Positions 5,281 through 60,272 of a DNA stretch of 64,000 nucleotides are shown in pieces. The DNA lies in the NCBI RefSeq assembly GCF_900142415.1, contig NZ_FRAU01000006.1:124001-188000 (forward strand), read 5' to 3'. The stretch is from Rhodothermus profundi (GTDB lineage Bacteria > Bacteroidota > Rhodothermia > Rhodothermales > Rhodothermaceae). Position numbers and translations under genes: made by a program. Within the stretch, counting starts at the first letter, position 1. Every line of letters starts with the position of its first letter. The notes under the pieces were generated by a model that was not told where the DNA came from, searched no databases, and worked only from the letters and a program-made list of their open reading frames with translations.

Positions 5281-5571
5281 TCAACTTGCAGCTTGCACCG
5301 CTTCGACCCGAGTAATTTCGGGAACGGCACGTTTGAGCACCTGCTCAATGCCAGCCCGAAGCGTCATCAAGCTCATCGGACAGGTGCCGCAGGCTCCCAG
5401 CAGCTCCAACTCGACGACGTAATCTTCCGTGACGTTCAACAGCCGCACCGATCCCCCATCGGTCATCAGATAGGGCCGAATCATATCCAGCGCTTCCTCA
5501 ATGCGCCGATGGAGCTCAGGATCATCGGGGGCCAGCGGACCTGAACTGCGGGTCGTTTTCGTATCGGCCAT
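5281..5571 (-). CDS. NifU C-terminal domain (Nfu-type) iron-sulfur protein
   Basis: 96 residues from ATG 5571 (MADTKTT..); the frame stays open to a TTG at 5607, but GAGG lies about 14 bases before ATG 5571. The protein is a single NifU-like domain: 'RIEEALDMIRPYLMTDGG', then 'GACGTCPMS', whose CxxC binds or transfers a 4Fe-4S cluster, and 'LRAGIEQVLKRAVPEI'. Nfu proteins carry clusters to target enzymes in the cytoplasm. The gene lies 66 bases downstream of mrp on the same strand, which fits a shared role in iron-sulfur assembly, and is followed by the terminator at 5229-5256. Confidence 0.9.
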   Translation of the reverse strand: MADTKTTRSSGPLAPDDPELHRRIEEALDMIRPYLMTDGGSVRLLNVTEDYVVELELLGACGTCPMSLMTLRAGIEQVLKRAVPEITRVEAVQAAS

Positions 5572-5637
5572 GACGCGCACACTTGCCTCGTTTACTTTGT
5601 TAAGCAAAAACCCCTTAGCCGACGAATTGTTGCCGGT

Positions 5638-6741
5638 TTAGCGGTAGAGGATTTCAATCCGTTGGGTAGGGGGCTGCTCGGCGTTGCGCAGGTTAACCTG
5701 CTCCACCACTTGTTCAGCCAGCCGGAAAAACGCCTGCGCTGAAGGGCTTTCTGGCTCGGCCAACACAATTGGTTTTCCGGTATCGCCTCCCTCTCGCACT
5801 GCTTCTTCGATAGGGATTTCGCCGAGAAACGGGACGTCCAGTTCCTCGGCCAGCCGACGGGCTCCCCCTCGTCCGAAGAGGTAGTATTTACGATCCGGGA
5901 GATCTGGCGGAGAAAAGTACGCCATGTTTTCCACAATGCCCAGGACAGGCACCTGCACGTTGCGAAACATAGCCACCCCTTTGCGGGCATCGGCTAGCGC
6001 CACCGGCTGCGGTGTCGAGACGATGAGGGCTCCGGTCAGTGCAATTGACTGGACAATTGTCAGCGGCACGTCGCCCGTTCCCGGCGGGAGATCAAGAATC
6101 AGATAGTCCAGCGTTCCCCAATCCGCTTCGCCCAGGAATTGCCGCAGCGCTTTCGCGACCATCGGGCCCCGCCAGATGACCGCCTGCTCAGGGTTAACAA
6201 TGAATCCCATGGAGAGCAGGCGCACGTTGTGCCGCACCAATGGTACGATTTTGCGCTGCTCATTAACACGCGGCTTTTCCTCTCGCACGCCAAACATGGT
6301 AGGCACCGATGGCCCATAAATGTCGGCGTCGAGCAGTCCTACGTCATATCCACGCGCCGCCAGCGCCACGGCCAGATTAACCGCCACTGTACTCTTGCCC
6401 ACACCGCCTTTCCCTGAAGCCACCGCAACAAAGTTCAGCACTCCTTCGGGCTGCACCGACGGCATGGGGCCGCCTCCCTGCACTTCCAGCCCGATCATTT
6501 CGGTGTCGGTCTCAATCTGCACGGCCAGATCTGTACCGAAGGCCTCCTGCAACAATTCTCGACACTGCTCAGGCGCCTGGCGAGCAAATAGGGTATCCGG
6601 CCGTTTGAAAACCAACGTGAAGGCTACGCGGCCCTCTTCGACCCGGAGGTTGCGCACCATCTTGAGCCGAACAATATCGCGGCCACGCTCTGGCTCAATG
6701 ACGCGTGCCAGTACATGCAGCACTTCCTGCGGAGTGGGCAT
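5638..6741 (-). CDS. mrp: Mrp/ApbC family iron-sulfur cluster carrier ATPase
   Basis: 367 residues, the usual length. The N-terminal ~90 residues form a MIP18/DUF59 domain ('QEVLHVLARVIEPERGRDI'). The deviant Walker A motif 'SGKGGVGKSTVAVNLA' is near residue 112, followed by 'LLDADIYGPSVPTMFG' and 'LDYLILDLPPGTGD'. These ATPases bind 4Fe-4S clusters and pass them to apoproteins. In the C-terminal part 'ENMAYFSPPDLPDRKYYLFG' stands where many relatives have a cluster-binding CxxC, so that pair is absent here. Gene order (mrp then Nfu) supports the role. The upstream gene is a Ppx/GppA phosphatase 67 bases away. Confidence 0.92.
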   Translation of the reverse strand: MPTPQEVLHVLARVIEPERGRDIVRLKMVRNLRVEEGRVAFTLVFKRPDTLFARQAPEQCRELLQEAFGTDLAVQIETDTEMIGLEVQGGGPMPSVQPEGVLNFVAVASGKGGVGKSTVAVNLAVALAARGYDVGLLDADIYGPSVPTMFGVREEKPRVNEQRKIVPLVRHNVRLLSMGFIVNPEQAVIWRGPMVAKALRQFLGEADWGTLDYLILDLPPGTGDVPLTIVQSIALTGALIVSTPQPVALADARKGVAMFRNVQVPVLGIVENMAYFSPPDLPDRKYYLFGRGGARRLAEELDVPFLGEIPIEEAVREGGDTGKPIVLAEPESPSAQAFFRLAEQVVEQVNLRNAEQPPTQRIEILYR

Positions 6742-6808: not shown

Positions 6809-7732
6809 TCAGCAACGGGGCAGATGACGTAAGATCAGGCCATGTCGTAATCCGAAGGGGCTCACCCGGCAGAGGCGCCACCTGCCCCACGTCATAATTT
6901 CGTGCAATAGCAAAGCGCCCATAGGTAGCACGTCGGCGCGGCCGGCCAGTAGCTCGGGCCAGAGTGCCCGCACGGCTGCTGCGGACATCTTCAGCAGGCG
7001 ATCGCGCCAGGTAGCTACCGCATCGTACGTCAACGCTACAGATGACTCAACGGGAAAACTACGCGTCTCCAGAGCCGCCAGCGACACGCAGGTACCAGCT
7101 ACGCCTACCAGCGCATAATGCGTTGCCGCGCGTGGCAATCGCACCGCCGCCAGCGCTTCCCGAATCTGGTGCTGCGCCTGCATAATGGCCTCAGGCGACG
7201 GGGGCAGCGAGGCAAACCAACGTTCTGTCAGACGCACCGTACCCAGCGGCAAACTACGCGCAAACCCGACGGTAACCGTACCATCGGGCTGGCGTGCTCC
7301 CCCCACCAGCTCGGTTGATCCCCCGCCAATATCCACCACCAGACAGGGTCCATGGGGCATGCCGGGCGCCGCCAGCGCCCCCTGCAGACTCCAGTAGGCC
7401 TCTTCCTCTCCACTGATGATCTCCGCTGCCACGCCCAGCACCTCCCGAACGATCCGGACCACTTCCTGCGCATTGCGCGCCTCCCGCGTAGCGCTGGTCG
7501 CTGCCACCCAACACGCCTTGACGCCATAGGCCCGCAATCGCTCCCGATAAGCCTCCAGCGTGCGGCGCAACCGCATCAGTGCAGCTGGACCAATCATACC
7601 GGTGCGCTCTAGCCCTTCGCCCAGCCGCACGAATTGCTCGGCTTCATAGCAGGGGCGGAGCTGTCCATCAATTACCTCCGCAATAAGGAGCAGGGCAGTA
7701 TTGGTCCCCAGATCAATTGCTGCCAGACGCAC
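6809..7732 (-). CDS. Ppx/GppA family phosphatase (exopolyphosphatase type)
   Basis: 307 residues, the length of the short single-domain Ppx/GppA members that lack the HD extension. It belongs to the actin/hexokinase ATPase fold: phosphate-1 loop 'AAIDLGTNTALLLIAE' at the very start, 'SGEEEAYWSLQGAL' near residue 105, and phosphate-2 loop 'VVDIGGGSTELVGG' near 130. Such enzymes release phosphate from polyphosphate or from pppGpp; the two activities cannot be separated by sequence here. It begins 4 bases after the prmA stop on the minus strand, so the two are probably co-translated. Confidence 0.9.
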   Translation of the reverse strand: MRLAAIDLGTNTALLLIAEVIDGQLRPCYEAEQFVRLGEGLERTGMIGPAALMRLRRTLEAYRERLRAYGVKACWVAATSATREARNAQEVVRIVREVLGVAAEIISGEEEAYWSLQGALAAPGMPHGPCLVVDIGGGSTELVGGARQPDGTVTVGFARSLPLGTVRLTERWFASLPPSPEAIMQAQHQIREALAAVRLPRAATHYALVGVAGTCVSLAALETRSFPVESSVALTYDAVATWRDRLLKMSAAAVRALWPELLAGRADVLPMGALLLHEIMTWGRWRLCRVSPFGLRHGLILRHLPRC

Positions 7733-7736
7733 CGCT

Positions 7737-8594
7737 TCAGACCATTCGTTTCAACATAACCGCCCACCAGGCATTTTCCGTAGCCTCATGGACAGGCGCC
7801 AGGTCTTGCGCGGCTGCTGCTTCCAGCATCAGCTCACGTTCTTCGCGAAGCAATCCAGAAAGCACTACGTAGCCCCCGAGGCGCACTTTCTCCCGAAAAG
7901 CTGGCAACAGTTCGCAAAGTACGCGCCGGTGAATATTGGCCAGAATTAGATCAAAATTGCGCTCAGGCACCACCTCGATAGAACCGCGCCGGAACTCGAC
8001 CCGGCCGGCTACGCCATTGCGCGCAAAATTTTCCTGCGCGTTTTCGGCTGCCCAGGGATCAATGTCGAAGGCAATGGCCGAGCCGGCTCCCAGCTTCAGG
8101 GCCGCAATGGTCAGGATGCCCGTACCCGTTCCCGCGTCAAGTACCCGGGCGTCTGGATCCACGCATTCAGGTAACATTTGCAATACAAGACGCGTGCTTT
8201 CATGGTACCCCGTGCCAAAACTCATCTTTGGATCAATCTCCAGCACGATATGCGCGGCGTAAGCCTCGGGCACGGCATGCCAGCTCGGCTTGATCAGGAA
8301 CGGCCCAACAGCAATAGGTTGCAGTTGCGATTCCCACCGAGCATTCCAATTTTCTGGTTTGATGGTGCGTACGGCGATTTCGTCGGGCAATCCCTGGCGG
8401 CGCAGCAGTTCGCGCACTGCTTCCCGAACGGCTGCCCGCCACTGCGGAGCCGGCATGTAAGCTTTCAGATGATCTGGCTCTTCCCAGAATGCTTCGAAGC
8501 CCAGCGCGTCCAGTTGAATAACCAGGGGGTCGTGAAGCTGCTCAGGGACAGGCAGTACCACTTCAATGGTTGGCTCATAGATCGAGACGCTCAA
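7737..8594 (-). CDS. prmA: Ribosomal protein L11 methyltransferase
   Basis: About 285 residues if translation starts at TTG 8594 (..SVSIYEPTIEVVLPVPEQ). A longer frame to 8654 would overlap the upstream gene by 80 bases and seems less likely. PrmA adds methyl groups from S-adenosylmethionine to ribosomal protein L11. Seen are the N-terminal ferredoxin-like region and the SAM-binding Rossmann domain with 'MSFGTGYHESTRLVLQML', 'VLDAGTGTGILTIAALKLGA' near residue 155, and the NPPY-position motif 'DLILANIHRRVL'. It overlaps the end of the repeat protein gene by about 20 bases. The start codon is the uncertain part. Confidence 0.9.
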   Translation of the reverse strand: MSVSIYEPTIEVVLPVPEQLHDPLVIQLDALGFEAFWEEPDHLKAYMPAPQWRAAVREAVRELLRRQGLPDEIAVRTIKPENWNARWESQLQPIAVGPFLIKPSWHAVPEAYAAHIVLEIDPKMSFGTGYHESTRLVLQMLPECVDPDARVLDAGTGTGILTIAALKLGAGSAIAFDIDPWAAENAQENFARNGVAGRVEFRRGSIEVVPERNFDLILANIHRRVLCELLPAFREKVRLGGYVVLSGLLREERELMLEAAAAQDLAPVHEATENAWWAVMLKRMV

Positions 8595-10311
8595 TCCGGA
8601 GTCCCCAGGCCTGGGGCTCTTCGGGTTCGGGATATTCGAACTGACCATAGGCATGCGAAAAATCGGTCCGAAAGTGCGCCGTGTATGATCCGGGTGGCAG
8701 CGTCAGCGTCGTATCCGCCAGCCGATTGCGGGCGTCTCCTCCGGCAGGGCGGGTGTGCTCCCAGGTCATTTCCCAGACGATCTCACCGGTGCCGGCGCGT
8801 TCAATCCATCCGTAATCATACCGGCCACTGATCGATAATTCTCCAACTGCCCGAATGCGCAGCCGCGTGGGCCTGGTTAAGGTAAACGCCTGAACGCGAT
8901 GTTCGTTGTTCCCAACACGGGTTAAGTCGACCAGTACCCGGCCACCTGACTGAGAAGCTTCCGGTATGGGCTCCTGTTCAGCTACTGGAGGGACTGTCGG
9001 CATCAGAATGTGCTGTTGTTGCTGGGGACTCAGGACAAACAGCGTGACCCCCCAGCGCCCGGGATGCTCGGGGCGTCCGTTGCGCCAGTCTCCATAGGCG
9101 TGCGAGTTATCCGTGCGATAATGCAGCGTGTAGCGACCGGGTGCCAGCCTTAGCGCAGCAATCTCCAGCCGATTGTTGGGATGGCCGCCGGCCGGCACGG
9201 AACGGCTTCGAGCCATTTCCCAGACGATTACGCCGGTGCTGTCGGTCAGCCAGGCATAGTCGTAGCGTCGATTCCGCGTGCCCAGCTCTCCCAGCGCGTA
9301 GAGTAGCACCGCCGTGGTATCCGTTACTTCAAAGCCAACCGCGCGATTTTCGTTGTTTCCCACAGCGGTCAATTGAAGCACTGGTTGCAGGTCGGTCCAG
9401 GGATCCACAAGCGTCACACTTGTATCTTCGGGGTGCAACCGCCAGAGGGTTATGCCCCAGGCAGCGGGATCATACGGTGGGTTGCGTCGCCAGTTGCCAA
9501 AGGCATGCGCGGCATCCGTCTGGAACCAGACGCGATACAGCCCGGGGGCCAGACTTAACGTGTCGCGCACCTGGCGATTGCCTATCCAGCCACCAGCGGG
9601 CTGGCTCTGCGCATGCGTCATTTCCCAGACACGTTGCCCCTCAGGAAGCCGCTCAATCCATCCGTAGTCGGCCGGATTCGGATCGAACTCTCCCACCGCA
9701 TAGAGTCGCACTCGTGCAGGTTGCCGAACATGCAGCAGCGCCATGCGGGCGGTAGCCGAAGGCATAGGAGCCGCTGTCCAGAGCAGTGCAGGGCCGTCCG
9801 GTGCCTGGAGTTGACCGTCTTCCAGCCAGAGCAAAGCAGCTTCGTCCAGCACCCAGAAGCGTAGCGTCCACTCTTGGCGGCTCCGCGTCCAGGGCGGCCT
9901 AGGCGTCAGCCACGTCCAGAAGCCGGTTCGAGGTGGCACATTACCCTGCGTAGTAAAGAAAACCTCATAGCGACCGGGTGCCAACTGAAGCGTATCACGC
10001 ACCCGGAAACGAAGCGATCTGGTTCCAGGCGGCGGTTGCATCTTCCAGACAACGCGACGATCCGACGCGCGCAGGAGCCATCCATACGCCGCAAGCGCGC
10101 CATCTGAGCGGGCCCCGACGCCTTCCAACAGAAGCCGAACCGGACGTTCGATCACCAGTGTTCGATGGTAGAGCATGCCCGGTGCCATGTCGGAAAACAC
10201 AACAACTTCCCCTGCAGGCAACTCCTGTCGCTGGCAGGCGCGAAGGCCTACCAGCAGCATCAGCAGCATCAGCACCGCAAGCTGCCAGCGTATCAGGGTC
10301 GTGCGCGACAT
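8575..10311 (-). CDS. Exported protein with four copies of a ~110-residue beta module
   Basis: 578 residues; not recognised as a named family. The N-terminus (MSRTTLIRWQLAVLMLLMLL then VGLRACQRQ) is a signal peptide, perhaps a lipoprotein signal ending LRAC. Four related modules follow at about residues 35-125, 189-300, 316-430 and 462-575. Each reads roughly: 'VGE..DYGWIE....VWEM', 'PAGG..NR...TL.LAPG.Y', 'RTD.SHAYG.W' and 'P..WGITL..L'. The first is the most divergent and lacks the SHAYG block. Invariant Trp, Gly and aromatic residues suggest a beta-sandwich sensor or adhesion module. It leads the minus-strand run prmA-ppx-mrp-nfu. A stretch rich in Q, P and E at about 435-455 links modules 3 and 4. 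Confidence 0.75.
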   Translation of the reverse strand: MSRTTLIRWQLAVLMLLMLLVGLRACQRQELPAGEVVVFSDMAPGMLYHRTLVIERPVRLLLEGVGARSDGALAAYGWLLRASDRRVVWKMQPPPGTRSLRFRVRDTLQLAPGRYEVFFTTQGNVPPRTGFWTWLTPRPPWTRSRQEWTLRFWVLDEAALLWLEDGQLQAPDGPALLWTAAPMPSATARMALLHVRQPARVRLYAVGEFDPNPADYGWIERLPEGQRVWEMTHAQSQPAGGWIGNRQVRDTLSLAPGLYRVWFQTDAAHAFGNWRRNPPYDPAAWGITLWRLHPEDTSVTLVDPWTDLQPVLQLTAVGNNENRAVGFEVTDTTAVLLYALGELGTRNRRYDYAWLTDSTGVIVWEMARSRSVPAGGHPNNRLEIAALRLAPGRYTLHYRTDNSHAYGDWRNGRPEHPGRWGVTLFVLSPQQQQHILMPTVPPVAEQEPIPEASQSGGRVLVDLTRVGNNEHRVQAFTLTRPTRLRIRAVGELSISGRYDYGWIERAGTGEIVWEMTWEHTRPAGGDARNRLADTTLTLPPGSYTAHFRTDFSHAYGQFEYPEPEEPQAWGLRIERLDL

Positions 10312-10520
10312 GGCAGGGCCTTTACCGGTCTGGGCTCCGGAGTACGCGCGCTAACGCGTAAAAGTTACAGGATGGCATACGCGCTCCGCCATCCTATCCG
10401 TTGTATTCTTCAAAACGAAGAAGCGTAACAAACGCCCGCCTTTTTCAGTATGATGCAAGCAGCTACGTACAGGCGGGCCTTCCGCTGGCTTTCCAGAGCT
10501 ACGGATTTTATCAGGGTTGC

Positions 10521-12767
10521 ATGGTACGCAATGTAATGTTTCCCTCACTGCAGCAGACGGAAATGCTGCTTCAGCAACGGCGCACCCGCCTGTCGCTGCT
10601 GCTGCCCTTCTTTGGCACCGGTTACATTCTGTCGGTCATCTTCCATTTGCTGATATGGAAATCGGGGACGCCTCCGTCAACGTGGGTACGGCTCCTTTAC
10701 TATGACGGACTCATTTTGCTCACCTATGGCGCCCTCTGGCTGCTGCTCTGGGGCGAGACGCATCAGCGCGGTGCAGCACCCACCCGCATCTTCTGGAGCC
10801 TGGCTGTTGCCTCCCTGCTCTTTCTGGGAGTCGGTTATCTGGTATTGCGCATCGGTCGCCCTTCTGACGATTTAGCGCTGCCTGCTCAGGTAACAGGGTT
10901 TGCCTATGAGACAGGCGTGCCGCTCACATGGGCGGTTGTTGTGCAAATGAACGTGCTGGCGCTGTTTGAGGCACTGCTGGCTTTCTGGTTGCTGTTGCAA
11001 CTGCGGGGTCTGGTGCTGTTTAAACGCACGCGGCAGAGCGAGCGAAGCTGGCGCTGGATGCTGGGGAGCATGGCTTTCTCTGCCCTGCTCGTTGACCTGC
11101 TTCAGCCCGGAGAATTTGTGCTGGCTTTACTGCTCAGCCTGCCGGTCGGGCTTATGCTCCGCAATGCTTTTCGCGTTTCCTGGATTCTGTATCTCACGTT
11201 CCGGCAGAAACTGGTGAACCTGGGGCTGACGGTACTGGCCACGCTTGTCCTTTCGGGCACGCTGGCCTTCACCAGCGGACCGGCTCATGAGTACGTCTGG
11301 CACTACAGTCCTGCGCTGAGTAGCTTTGTGAATTTAAGTCTGGCCTTCGGCATTCTTTATCTGGTCACTTCTTTTCTGTCGCTGCTCTTTCACCTGCCGA
11401 CAACGAGCGACTTTCAGCGCAAGGTAGATGAGCTGGCAGCGCTGCATGCCCTGATGCAATTGGTCAGCCAGGTGTTCGACGTAACCCGGCTTACCGAAAC
11501 CATTGTTCGGCTTCCCGTCGATGCCGGCGTAGCCCGAGCCGCCTGGCTTGCGCTGCCTGACTTTCAGAAGACGTTTCGGCCGCGAATTGTAGCGGCTTAT
11601 AACCTGCCCGACGGCCAGTCACCCGAGACGCTTGTAGATGTCGAGGCGCTCTACCAGGAAGTAGCCATGCGCCGGCAGTTTCTACTGCTGGAGCAGGCGC
11701 TGACCGATCATCGAGTGCGCGCTCAACCGCAGCATGGCATCGGTAGCCTGCTGGCGGTTCCGCTGATTGCGCGCAACGAGTTGCTGGGCGTCCTGTTTGT
11801 CACGCGTGAGGTAGCCTACGGTTTTGAACAGGATGACGTAGAAGCCATTACAGTGTTTGCCGCGCAGGCAGCGCTTGCCCTTGACAATGCCCGGCTGCTG
11901 AATGAACGCCTGGAAAAAGAACGCCTGGCGCGCGAATTGGCCATCGCCCGCGACGTGCAGCGTCGTCTTCTGCCCCAGCGGTTGCCTCGTCTCCCCGGGT
12001 TGCAGATCGTGGCCGCCAGCATCTCCGCCCAGGAAGTTGGCGGTGATTACTACGATTTGCTGCCCATCGACACCCACCGGCTGGCCTTCATCGTGGCTGA
12101 TGTTGCCGGCAAAGGAACCTCTGCGGCTTTTTACATGGCCGAACTGCAGGGCATCTTCCGGGCGCTGAGTCCGCTCAACCCCGATCCCGCCGCTTTTCTC
12201 GTGCAGGCCAACCAGGCACTTTTTGGAACGCTGGAACGCAAAGCCTTTATCTCGGCCGTCTATGGTATTTTTGACGTCCAGCACGGCACGCTTTCGCTGG
12301 CCCGCGCGGGGCATCTGCCGCCTATTTTGCTGCGTCCGCACGAACCGCCGCGCCTGCTGCGGCTTCAGGGGTTGGGATTGGGGCTAGATCGGGGCGAACT
12401 TTTTCGCCGAACGCTGGAGACGTGCACGCTGTCGCTGCAAGCAGGCGACCGCCTGCTGCTGTACACAGATGGACTGATTGAAAGCCGCAACGACCGCGGC
12501 GAATCCTTTGGCTATACCCGCCTCCTTCAATCCCTTGAAACGCATGCGCTGACGCCTATCGACCAATTGCATCGCCATCTGCTTGACACGTTGCAGCAGT
12601 TTACCGGCCGCCCCACCTACGACGATGACCTGACCCTTGTTATCTTCCAGTGGCAAGAGGTGCCGGCAGCCCAGAACAGACGGGATCGCCAGGCTCCTCA
12701 GCCCCAACCCGCTAGCCTACCCATGCGTTCTTCCCAACCTTCGCAGCATTCGCAACAAACGCCATGA
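10521..12767 (+). CDS. RsbU-like PP2C phosphatase with membrane and GAF domains
   Basis: 748 residues from ATG 10521; the frame extends to 10401 but the added residues look non-coding. The N-terminal ~300 residues hold about eight hydrophobic segments. A GAF-like domain spans about 311-460, ending in a helix 'LNERLEKERLARELAIARDV'. The SpoIIE/PP2C phosphatase domain (about 470-705) shows the metal-binding motifs 'VGGDYYDLL', 'VADVAGKGTSAAF', 'ARAGHLPPILLRP', 'LLLYTDGLIESRN' and 'TYDDDLTLVIF'. Such enzymes dephosphorylate STAS-domain anti-anti-sigma factors. Its stop overlaps the start of exactly such a gene (ATGA, 12764-12767). A low-complexity Gln/Pro/Ser tail of ~45 residues ends it. Confidence 0.9.
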   Translation: MVRNVMFPSLQQTEMLLQQRRTRLSLLLPFFGTGYILSVIFHLLIWKSGTPPSTWVRLLYYDGLILLTYGALWLLLWGETHQRGAAPTRIFWSLAVASLLFLGVGYLVLRIGRPSDDLALPAQVTGFAYETGVPLTWAVVVQMNVLALFEALLAFWLLLQLRGLVLFKRTRQSERSWRWMLGSMAFSALLVDLLQPGEFVLALLLSLPVGLMLRNAFRVSWILYLTFRQKLVNLGLTVLATLVLSGTLAFTSGPAHEYVWHYSPALSSFVNLSLAFGILYLVTSFLSLLFHLPTTSDFQRKVDELAALHALMQLVSQVFDVTRLTETIVRLPVDAGVARAAWLALPDFQKTFRPRIVAAYNLPDGQSPETLVDVEALYQEVAMRRQFLLLEQALTDHRVRAQPQHGIGSLLAVPLIARNELLGVLFVTREVAYGFEQDDVEAITVFAAQAALALDNARLLNERLEKERLARELAIARDVQRRLLPQRLPRLPGLQIVAASISAQEVGGDYYDLLPIDTHRLAFIVADVAGKGTSAAFYMAELQGIFRALSPLNPDPAAFLVQANQALFGTLERKAFISAVYGIFDVQHGTLSLARAGHLPPILLRPHEPPRLLRLQGLGLGLDRGELFRRTLETCTLSLQAGDRLLLYTDGLIESRNDRGESFGYTRLLQSLETHALTPIDQLHRHLLDTLQQFTGRPTYDDDLTLVIFQWQEVPAAQNRRDRQAPQPQPASLPMRSSQPSQHSQQTP

Positions 12768-13138
12768 GCAACTTTTCCGTAGGATTCCGACAGCACAATA
12801 GCGTACAGATTCTGGATCTACAGGGTGAACTTGACGCACATACCGCCCCCGAGCTGGAGGCAGCTTTGCAGCAGTGCCTCCAAAAAGGCCACTACCAGAT
12901 TCTGGTGAATGGCCGCCACCTGGATTACATCTCCAGTGCTGGACTGGGTGTGTTCATGGCTTATATCGAGGAAATCCGAGAAAAGGGAGGCGATCTGAAA
13001 ATTGCCGAGCTTAAACCCAGCGTGTACAACGTGTTCGATTTACTGGGTTTTCCGCTGCTTTTCGATATTGTGCCGTCCGAAGAGGAAGCGCTGGCGCGCT
13101 TTGCTCGTGGAGAACGTCCGACGCTGCCCTCCTCATAA
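12764..13138 (+). CDS. STAS-domain anti-anti-sigma factor (RsbV/SpoIIAA type)
   Basis: 124 residues, a single STAS domain. 'LQGELDAHTAPELEAAL' is the opening strand-helix, and 'HLDYISSAGLGVFMAYIEEI' holds the Ser that RsbW-type kinases phosphorylate in this family. In partner switching the unphosphorylated STAS protein traps the kinase and frees its target. It is translationally coupled to the upstream phosphatase by a 4-base overlap and is followed 16 bases later by the kinase gene. The partner sigma factor is not next to it and may act elsewhere in the genome. Confidence 0.93.
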   Translation: MSNFSVGFRQHNSVQILDLQGELDAHTAPELEAALQQCLQKGHYQILVNGRHLDYISSAGLGVFMAYIEEIREKGGDLKIAELKPSVYNVFDLLGFPLLFDIVPSEEEALARFARGERPTLPSS

Positions 13139-13154
13139 GCGACTGGAGCAAGCC

Positions 13155-13610
13155 GTGAGCCGCGCCCTTTACACCCTACGTATTCCCAGTGCAACGCGCT
13201 ATCTGCAAACGGTTCGGCGCTTTGTGGAGCGGCACGCCCGTGCGGCCGGCCTCTCAGAAGAGGCGATTGAGCAGCTGAAACTAGCGGTGGACGAAGCCTG
13301 CACCAATATCATCAAACATGCCTACAAAGGGCGTCCGGATCGCCCTATTGATATAGCTGTTCTGATTGAACCCGACCGTTTCATTGTACGCATTCGCGAT
13401 CAGGGCGAGGCGTTCGATCCTGCCCATTACCGGGCCCCGGACTTACCTACCCTCATTCGGCAACGCCAGGGAGGAGGACTGGGCGTACGCCTGATCCGTC
13501 AGCTGATGGATGAGGTAACCTACCAAAGCCGGGGGGCATATAACGAAGTGCGTCTCATCAAATACCTGGCGTCTTCCGGCACAGCCCTTCCGCCTTCTGC
13601 GAGCGCCTGA
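13155..13610 (+). CDS. RsbW-like serine kinase / anti-sigma factor (HATPase_c)
   Basis: 151 residues from GTG 13155, which has GGAG six bases upstream; the frame is open further up but would overlap the STAS gene deeply. It is a lone GHKL ATPase domain: N-box 'LAVDEACTNIIKHAYKG', G1 box 'IRDQGEAFDP', and G2-like 'GGGLGVRLIRQLMDEVTY'. Proteins of this kind phosphorylate the STAS partner and often bind a sigma factor. With the phosphatase and STAS genes it forms a complete signalling switch. It ends 2 bases from the convergent ubiE stop. Confidence 0.92.
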   Translation: MSRALYTLRIPSATRYLQTVRRFVERHARAAGLSEEAIEQLKLAVDEACTNIIKHAYKGRPDRPIDIAVLIEPDRFIVRIRDQGEAFDPAHYRAPDLPTLIRQRQGGGLGVRLIRQLMDEVTYQSRGAYNEVRLIKYLASSGTALPPSASA

Positions 13611-60184: not shown

Positions 60185-60199
60185 TTCTGGGGTTACCGG

Positions 60200-60272
60200 T
60201 GGGCCCGGCAGGATTCGAACCTGCGACCGTCGGATTATGAGTCCGCTGCTCTAACCGCTGAGCTACGGGCCC
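60200..60272 (-). tRNA. tRNA with CAT anticodon (Ile2-type or Met)
   Basis: 73 bases on the minus strand. Acceptor arms GGGCCCG and CGGGCCC pair over seven positions; the D-arm is GTAGCTCAGCGGTTAGAGC and the T-arm loop GGTTCGAATCC is canonical. The anticodon loop CTCATAA carries CAT. The GGGCCC acceptor and overall sequence resemble isoleucine tRNA that is modified to lysidine at C34, but elongator methionine tRNA cannot be ruled out by eye. The 3' end continues ACCG, so the CCA is not fully encoded. Confidence 0.93.

Follow-up and report, generated by a model that had tools for sequence, protein, structure and literature searches.

An undescribed tandem module with a near-invariant polar site in a four-module protein of Rhodothermus profundi

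We analyzed a stretch of 64,000 nucleotides of Rhodothermus profundi (hereafter the window) in which one protein, P0001, consists of a ~115-residue module in four copies, three canonical and one degenerate. This module represents an undescribed family with a known type of fold. Our preferred reading is that it is a non-catalytic ligand-binding module dependent on a divalent cation and that P0001 is a periplasmic receptor or adaptor, anchored in the inner membrane, next to a SpoIIE-STAS-RsbW switch; we assign this reading as a whole a probability of about 45%. We have high confidence in the module family and in where it is placed, moderate confidence in metal-dependent binding by the module and low confidence in the coupling of P0001 to the switch. 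The module array, its conservation, the predicted fold, the predicted anchor helix, the gene order and the gene fusions are shown here, whereas the cation, the ligand and the coupling to the switch are inferred. The original prediction, made from the sequence of the window, had reported four tandem copies of an undescribed module. To this we add that the family is broad, that its polar site is near-invariant, that SpoIIE-STAS-RsbW genes lie divergent from the gene of P0001 and that single modules occur in fusions.

The four-module protein and its predicted anchor

The reading frame of P0001 is free of internal stops (Table 1), and its own genome (3.1 Mb) contains a single match to the protein. 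Pairwise local alignment confirmed that the four modules are related tandem copies: all six pairs scored 7 to 43 s.d. above shuffled sequences (500 shuffles each), with 54/115 identical positions between M3 and M4 and 21/69 in the weakest pair, M1-M3. The motifs initially quoted as invariant hold for M2-M4 but not for M1, in which PAGG..NR and TD.SHA are missing and all that remains is AYGW, VWKM and LAPGRY-like pieces. The first copy is the most divergent, as had been proposed. The accompanying suggestion that it caps the array is consistent with the N-terminal position of the degenerate copy in 78 of the 80 best loci (best 80 of 426 relatives). "Non-binding copy" may be a better name for M1, because the polar site described below appears to have been given up specifically in this module.

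P0001 had also been described as carrying an export signal. A hydrophobic N-terminal helix is indeed predicted, but inspection favors a signal anchor that stays uncleaved over a signal peptide that is removed, since the helix of residues 3-25 is accompanied by arginines on both sides in the aligned orthologues. We rejected the possibility that P0001 is a lipoprotein: C26 is preceded by L-R-A, and this cysteine is not conserved in the aligned orthologues beyond the genus.

Table 1. Positions of P0001, its parts and its neighbors in the window
Feature	Position	Strand	Evidence or remarks
NifU-like (nfu)	5281..5607	-	PF01106
Mrp/NUBPL-type ATPase	5638..6741	-	PF10609
Ppx/GppA phosphatase, next in run	6809..7732	-	PF02541
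prmA-like methyltransferase	7737..8591	-	PF06325 E 3.6e-55; synteny
Four-module protein P0001	8575..10311	-	578 aa; type A, the form of the order Rhodothermales
Module 4 (M4), aa 460-578	8578..8934	-	Putative site E491, D499, AGG523-525, N529, D550, S552, H553; model pLDDT 96.8
Module 3 (M3), aa 308-426	9034..9390	-	Putative site E342, D351, N380, D401, S403, H404
Module 2 (M2), aa 183-297	9421..9765	-	Putative site E208, D215, AGG239-241, N245, D266, H269
Module 1 (M1), aa 36-155	9847..10206	-	Degenerate: tryptophans retained, polar site gone
Predicted N-terminal membrane-anchor helix, aa 3-25	10237..10305	-	AlphaFold helix; hydrophobic stretch, flanking R in orthologues
GAF-SpoIIE phosphatase, divergent	10401..12767	+	PF07228 E 1.7e-44, GAF; conserved divergent neighbor
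STAS (anti-anti-sigma-like) protein	12764..13138	+	PF01740; synteny
RsbW-like HATPase_c_2 protein	13002..13610	+	PF13581; synteny; listed ORF, true start probably later

The claim that the module is undescribed withstood a search of known families. No Pfam-A or NCBIfam model reached its curated cut-off for P0001, and neither P0001 nor its modules had a significant match among PDB sequences. None of 98 single modules came near the cut-off of a Pfam model, and the same was true of 72 full-length proteins against NCBIfam. Sets of 16 and 98 modules compared with Pfam, NCBIfam and PDB sequences yielded weak or stray matches only; DUF5013, holin, P_ac_wall_RPT, lysozyme inhibitor, DUF6786 and others were set aside as sub-cut-off or stray. 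We recognized no description of the module in the literature covered, from which subscription journals were mostly absent, and four motif strings returned no match.

Distribution of the module and constancy of the array

P0001 was matched in 53 of 60 relatives and in 62 of the 146 genomes of the class; one family (f13) had no match among its 12 genomes listed. A profile of the module identified 66 of 394 genomes of the phylum (in the grouping of the search tool), 13 of 149 in the phylum to which G453, the host of the Thermoanaerobaculaceae locus L110, belongs, and 39 of 40 in Calditrichota, the phylum of G456, which hosts the Caldithrix abyssi locus L136. Across named genomes, 455 pattern stretches led to 426 confirmed relatives, of which we retained the best 80; these are the closest to the query and hence a biased sample. 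The record titles of the relatives include Bacteroidota, Ignavibacteriae, Calditrichaeota, KSB1, Zixiibacteriota, Gemmatimonadetes, Kapaibacterium and Thermoanaerobaculaceae. The module is common to several bacterial phyla and is not a local oddity. The taxonomic spread and linked genes, which the original prediction had proposed to examine, were found to comprise these several phyla and neighbors of the SpoIIE-STAS-RsbW, Omp85 and DUF4097 types. A mobile or phage origin was rejected: relatives were confirmed neither in plasmids nor in viral contigs, where none of the 11 (query P0001) and 9 (query A3) pattern stretches was confirmed as a relative.

Two types of four-module protein were distinguished. 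Type A is the Rhodothermales' own form, with a predicted N-terminal anchor helix; type B is the widespread form, with an apparently cleavable signal peptide in the loci inspected. We compared 27 loci of the order (7 + 20, selected among type-A-bearing genomes). Five loci of the order carry type B. Modules were called canonical at 70 bits or more and degenerate under 70 bits, the latter being mostly M1 and some weak type-A copies. By this rule, three canonical modules and one degenerate module were found in 78 of the best 80 of 426 loci, the two exceptions being L085, with two modules and a frame still open where the contig ends, and L131, with three modules. The same layout was observed in 20/20 Calditrichota loci and in the five type-B loci of the order (5/5). 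Four modules were recognizable in 25 of the 27 type-A loci, and 17 of these present the three-plus-one layout by the 70-bit rule. This constant count rules out a variable repeat array, with two six-module proteins of Calditrichota as exceptions (L212:2809-5442 and L213:2396-4951, each with five canonical modules and one degenerate). In a tree of 178 sampled modules, M2 formed a cluster (33/37 members of one clade, 47 M2 in total), as did the single modules of sensors (12/12 of a clade, 14 in total), and M3 (47/126) and M4 (32/52) were not separated.

Polar site, predicted fold and candidate ligand

We counted residues over the modules of loci L021-L035, L066-L145 and L199-L256, minus the CUB/PPC loci, with identical aligned modules counted once. 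The positions E/D32, D40, N70, D91 and H94 (module-4 numbering) were all present in 378 of the 391 distinct canonical modules, G65 in 391/391 and G66 in 390/391. The 13 exceptions lack one or two site positions, and 12 of them come from type-A loci. All 72 aligned full-length proteins (72/72) have E, D, N, D and H in each of M2, M3 and M4. Among 137 distinct degenerate modules, E32 was retained in 8, D40 in 8, W54 in 137 and W43 in 128. Because degenerate copies rarely retain the two acidic residues and always W54, it is the site, not the framework, that was given up in module 1.

The structure of one module, whose prediction had been suggested from the outset, was modelled with AlphaFold for M4 with 97 other modules. 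M4 was predicted as an eight-strand all-beta sandwich with a mean pLDDT of 96.8, and the model of the whole P0001 has a mean pLDDT of 87.9. At the top of the Foldseek rows, CUB domains (those of MASP and C1r/C1s) are interspersed with PPC/collagen-binding domains and GOLD domains. The best E is 1.2e-3, so that none reaches 0.001, and viral haemagglutinin and esterase sandwiches appear at similar E-values. With VIA-align, Z-scores near 8, which may reflect a common arrangement only, were obtained for PPC 5sv5 (Z 8.4, rmsd 2.9, 89 aligned), Kremen 5fwt (Z 8.0, rmsd 2.6, 91 aligned) and C1s CUB1 1nzi (Z 7.8, rmsd 2.6, 92 aligned); the PPC/collagen-binding rows were the best (Z 8.4 and 8.1) and GOLD reached Z 7.3. 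Eleven matches at E ≤ 0.001 from the fold search with the full-length model were set aside, with TM scores near 0.1. These results weakly suggest that CUB, PPC and GOLD domains are the nearest folds.

Calcium-binding CUB domains (C1s, MASP) serve as extracellular recognition modules, and their size and all-beta sandwich resemble those predicted for the module. M2-M4 of the window present a glutamate, an aspartate 7 to 9 residues on and D.SH after a later strand (D.AH in M2), and a comparable pattern is seen in several CUB sequences, both from the phylum and from solved structures. CUB domains have conserved disulfide cysteines, whereas the consensus of 98 modules and their invariant columns contain none. 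The module further differs from CUB in adding AGG..N and a histidine, in its tandem array with a site-less first copy and in having no sequence-profile match: CUB (PF00431) matched neither P0001 nor, at E ≤ 0.01, any of 98 modules, and a profile-profile link was not significant (hhalign E 0.13, probability 0.45%), although the short, non-significant alignment (E 0.13) pairs both D stretches. The Ca2+ site of C1s CUB1 comprises Glu45, Asp53 (beside Tyr52), Asp98 and Ser100 (PMC4222235), so that its acidic residues follow the same sequence order, E ... (Y)D ... D.S, as those of the module. Given the same site order and the non-significant profile comparison, we describe the module as one that may work like a calcium-binding CUB domain, without calling it one.

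PPC/collagen-binding domains (PF04151, ColG CBD) are accessory to secreted hydrolases, several with Ca2+, and they gave the best VIA-align rows; no profile link emerged, with no Pfam match and an hhalign E of 0.22 against the PPC domains of the phylum. The GOLD domain of p24 proteins is a sandwich of similar size without sequence match to the module, and we know of no acidic site of this kind in it.

We propose, by analogy with calcium-binding CUB domains, that the module would be an all-beta sandwich whose ligand lies outside the cytoplasm and is bound probably through a divalent cation, most likely Ca2+. E, D and D would hold this cation, and H and N would surround it. Histidine is an unusual Ca2+ ligand. 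The three site-bearing modules and the site-less one would together form an ectodomain held at the inner membrane by one N-terminal helix.

Single modules were found in 18 proteins of the retrieved fusion set, ten of which were scanned for domains. Five proteins (L021, L022, L200, L202 and L204) combine a module with Reg_prop, Y_Y_Y and histidine kinase domains, and L205 is an AraC-type hybrid with Reg_prop/Y_Y_Y, kinase, receiver and AraC HTH domains. Two others (L201 and L208) contain Reg_prop, module, Y_Y_Y and SpoIIE phosphatase in one chain. Two PF00144 serine-hydrolase proteins (L215:3504-5654 and L216:2156-4414) bear one module C-terminal of the hydrolase domain. In the sensors, the module sits in the Reg_prop/Y_Y_Y part and is predicted to be extracytoplasmic from this position ahead of the kinase or phosphatase part, a placement that argues for recognition rather than catalysis. 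The typical sensor of this class in Bacteroidota (HTCS) consists of propellers and Y_Y_Y, as described in PMC3243724, and compared with it the module is an extra domain ahead of the output. Sensors would use the module in cis, and the four-module proteins, whether free, anchored or secreted, would use it in trans.

These architectures bear on whether the polar residues could instead form a catalytic center of E, D, D, H and N, with module 1 as a dead copy. Strict conservation (378/391) would fit an enzyme, but the fold searches match this small sandwich chiefly with binding domains, and the module is joined to PF00144 hydrolase domains and to sensors. Modules so placed usually have an accessory binding role, and we consider an enzymatic module very improbable.

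A tentative possibility is that the module is a glycan-binding domain, like the Ca2+-dependent CBM35 and CBM6, with P0001 binding a polysaccharide of the envelope or environment and the sensors responding to oligosaccharides. The single modules in Reg_prop/Y_Y_Y sensors, the L205 hybrid among them, would agree with this, and large sensors of this class respond to oligosaccharides in Bacteroides, according to PMC3243724. CBM35 (2wz8) and CBM6 (2cdp) do appear in the Foldseek rows at E 1e-2, but these rows are weak and far down. W54 and W43 persist in 137/137 and 128/137 site-less copies and thus look structural rather than sugar-stacking. Two enzyme genes recur on the same strand near type-B genes, one for a secreted GH5 cellulase-like protein (6 loci) and one for a glucose/sorbosone dehydrogenase (9 loci), with one cluster member of each scanned, but they lie mostly one or more kilobases off. 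An ECF-type sigma factor is found near type-B genes in 8 loci (one member scanned); none of these three neighbors clearly favors a ligand. The GH5 cellulase-like protein L103:9949-11502 has a T9SS-type sorting tail.

Gene neighborhoods and a possible link to partner switching

The original prediction placed P0001 at the head of a run with prmA, ppx, mrp and nfu, and the Pfam matches of the neighbors agree. If its start is the GTG at 8591, as seems probable, the prmA-like gene shares 17 bases with the 3' end of the module gene. Divergent from the module gene, GAF-SpoIIE, STAS and RsbW-like genes (10401-13610) form a compact partner-switching set, and the N-terminus of the SpoIIE phosphatase is hydrophobic and membrane-like by inspection. 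Among the 27 loci of the order, some of which are cut by contig ends, SpoIIE was found in 22, always on the opposite strand, prmA in 19, ppx in 21 and mrp in 21.

Across the 60 relatives, both the module gene and an orthologous SpoIIE (match >300 bits) were present in 51 genomes, neither in six, the module alone in two (G009 and G041) and SpoIIE alone in one (G034). In G034, the prmA and SpoIIE matches lie ~210 bases apart with no N between them and no module gene in the gap (L257, around 5559-5770), and the locus retains matches to prmA, mrp, SpoIIE, STAS, RsbW, ubiE and pfkA. In G012, the SpoIIE gene is located elsewhere, away from the module gene. The existence of SpoIIE without the module and of the module without orthologous SpoIIE indicates that their coupling is not obligate. 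The six genomes with neither gene all belong to one family (f13), so that the co-loss with SpoIIE comes from this family and is perhaps one event.

P0001 most likely monitors the state of the envelope as a periplasmic receptor or adaptor, and in Rhodothermales it would probably inform the divergent partner switch of membrane SpoIIE phosphatase, STAS and RsbW. The link to the switch draws on the divergent SpoIIE in 22/27 loci, on the presence of both genes in 51 of the 60 relatives and on L201 and L208, which fuse module and SpoIIE. Against this reading, type-B relatives have other neighbors, including the GH5 cellulase-like gene.

The neighbors of type-B genes also include a barrel gene of one BLAST cluster, which adjoins the type-B gene in 16 of the best 80 of 426 loci (module ORF called in 76 of the 80), within 164 bases in 14 cases and overlapping as called in two. 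Six of the seven cluster members scanned match Omp85 (PF01103), and L127 matches DUF5686 only. Among the Calditrichota loci, the barrel gene lies upstream in 11/20, a DUF4097 (Toastrack) gene downstream in 11/20 and both occur in 10/20. P0001 might then be a structural part of the envelope, that is, a periplasmic or outer-membrane-associated spacer or chaperone working with the Omp85-type barrel and Toastrack, in which the metal merely stabilizes the modules. Besides these neighbors, the constant four-module array in 78 of the best 80 of 426 loci and the presence of the module in 39/40 Calditrichota genomes are in line with this alternative. We nonetheless find it doubtful: single modules within sensors favor recognition, and neither Omp85 nor DUF4097 was found among the nine window neighbors scanned.

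Omp85-barrel proteins beside type-B genes include L108:4918-6564 and L069:8318-9796, and that of L108 presents a weak, sub-threshold bactofilin-like stretch ahead of the barrel. With DUF4097 beside the module gene in 11/20 loci, the Calditrichota arrangement recalls the PSP/Lia partners that contain Toastrack. Toastrack has been argued to be intracellular (PMC11237479), and the hydrophobic, signal-like N-terminus that two of the DUF4097 proteins show by inspection (L136:8370-9170 and L088:5666-6466) is at odds with this.

Returning to the receptor reading, a broader version would make the module a Ca2+-dependent recognition domain, so far unnamed, that serves as a main envelope-sensing module of the FCB group. 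It would act in cis within sensor kinases and SpoIIE phosphatases, and in trans as a free receptor of four modules, three of them with a live site and one with a dead site, coupled to the membrane SpoIIE switch in Rhodothermales and to the Omp85 barrel and Toastrack in Calditrichota, where the module is nearly universal. We regard this generalization as unlikely to be correct in full. The domain occurs in 39 of the 40 sampled Calditrichota genomes and under at least six phylum-level names, with a near-invariant site, yet it has no model in the versions of Pfam and NCBIfam searched. Naming it would aid annotation, both of the genes behind the 426 stretches and, in a set of two-component and SpoIIE regulators, of part of the sensory region.

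Elsewhere in the window, one tRNA-Met gene (60198-60272) was the sole tRNA gene found.
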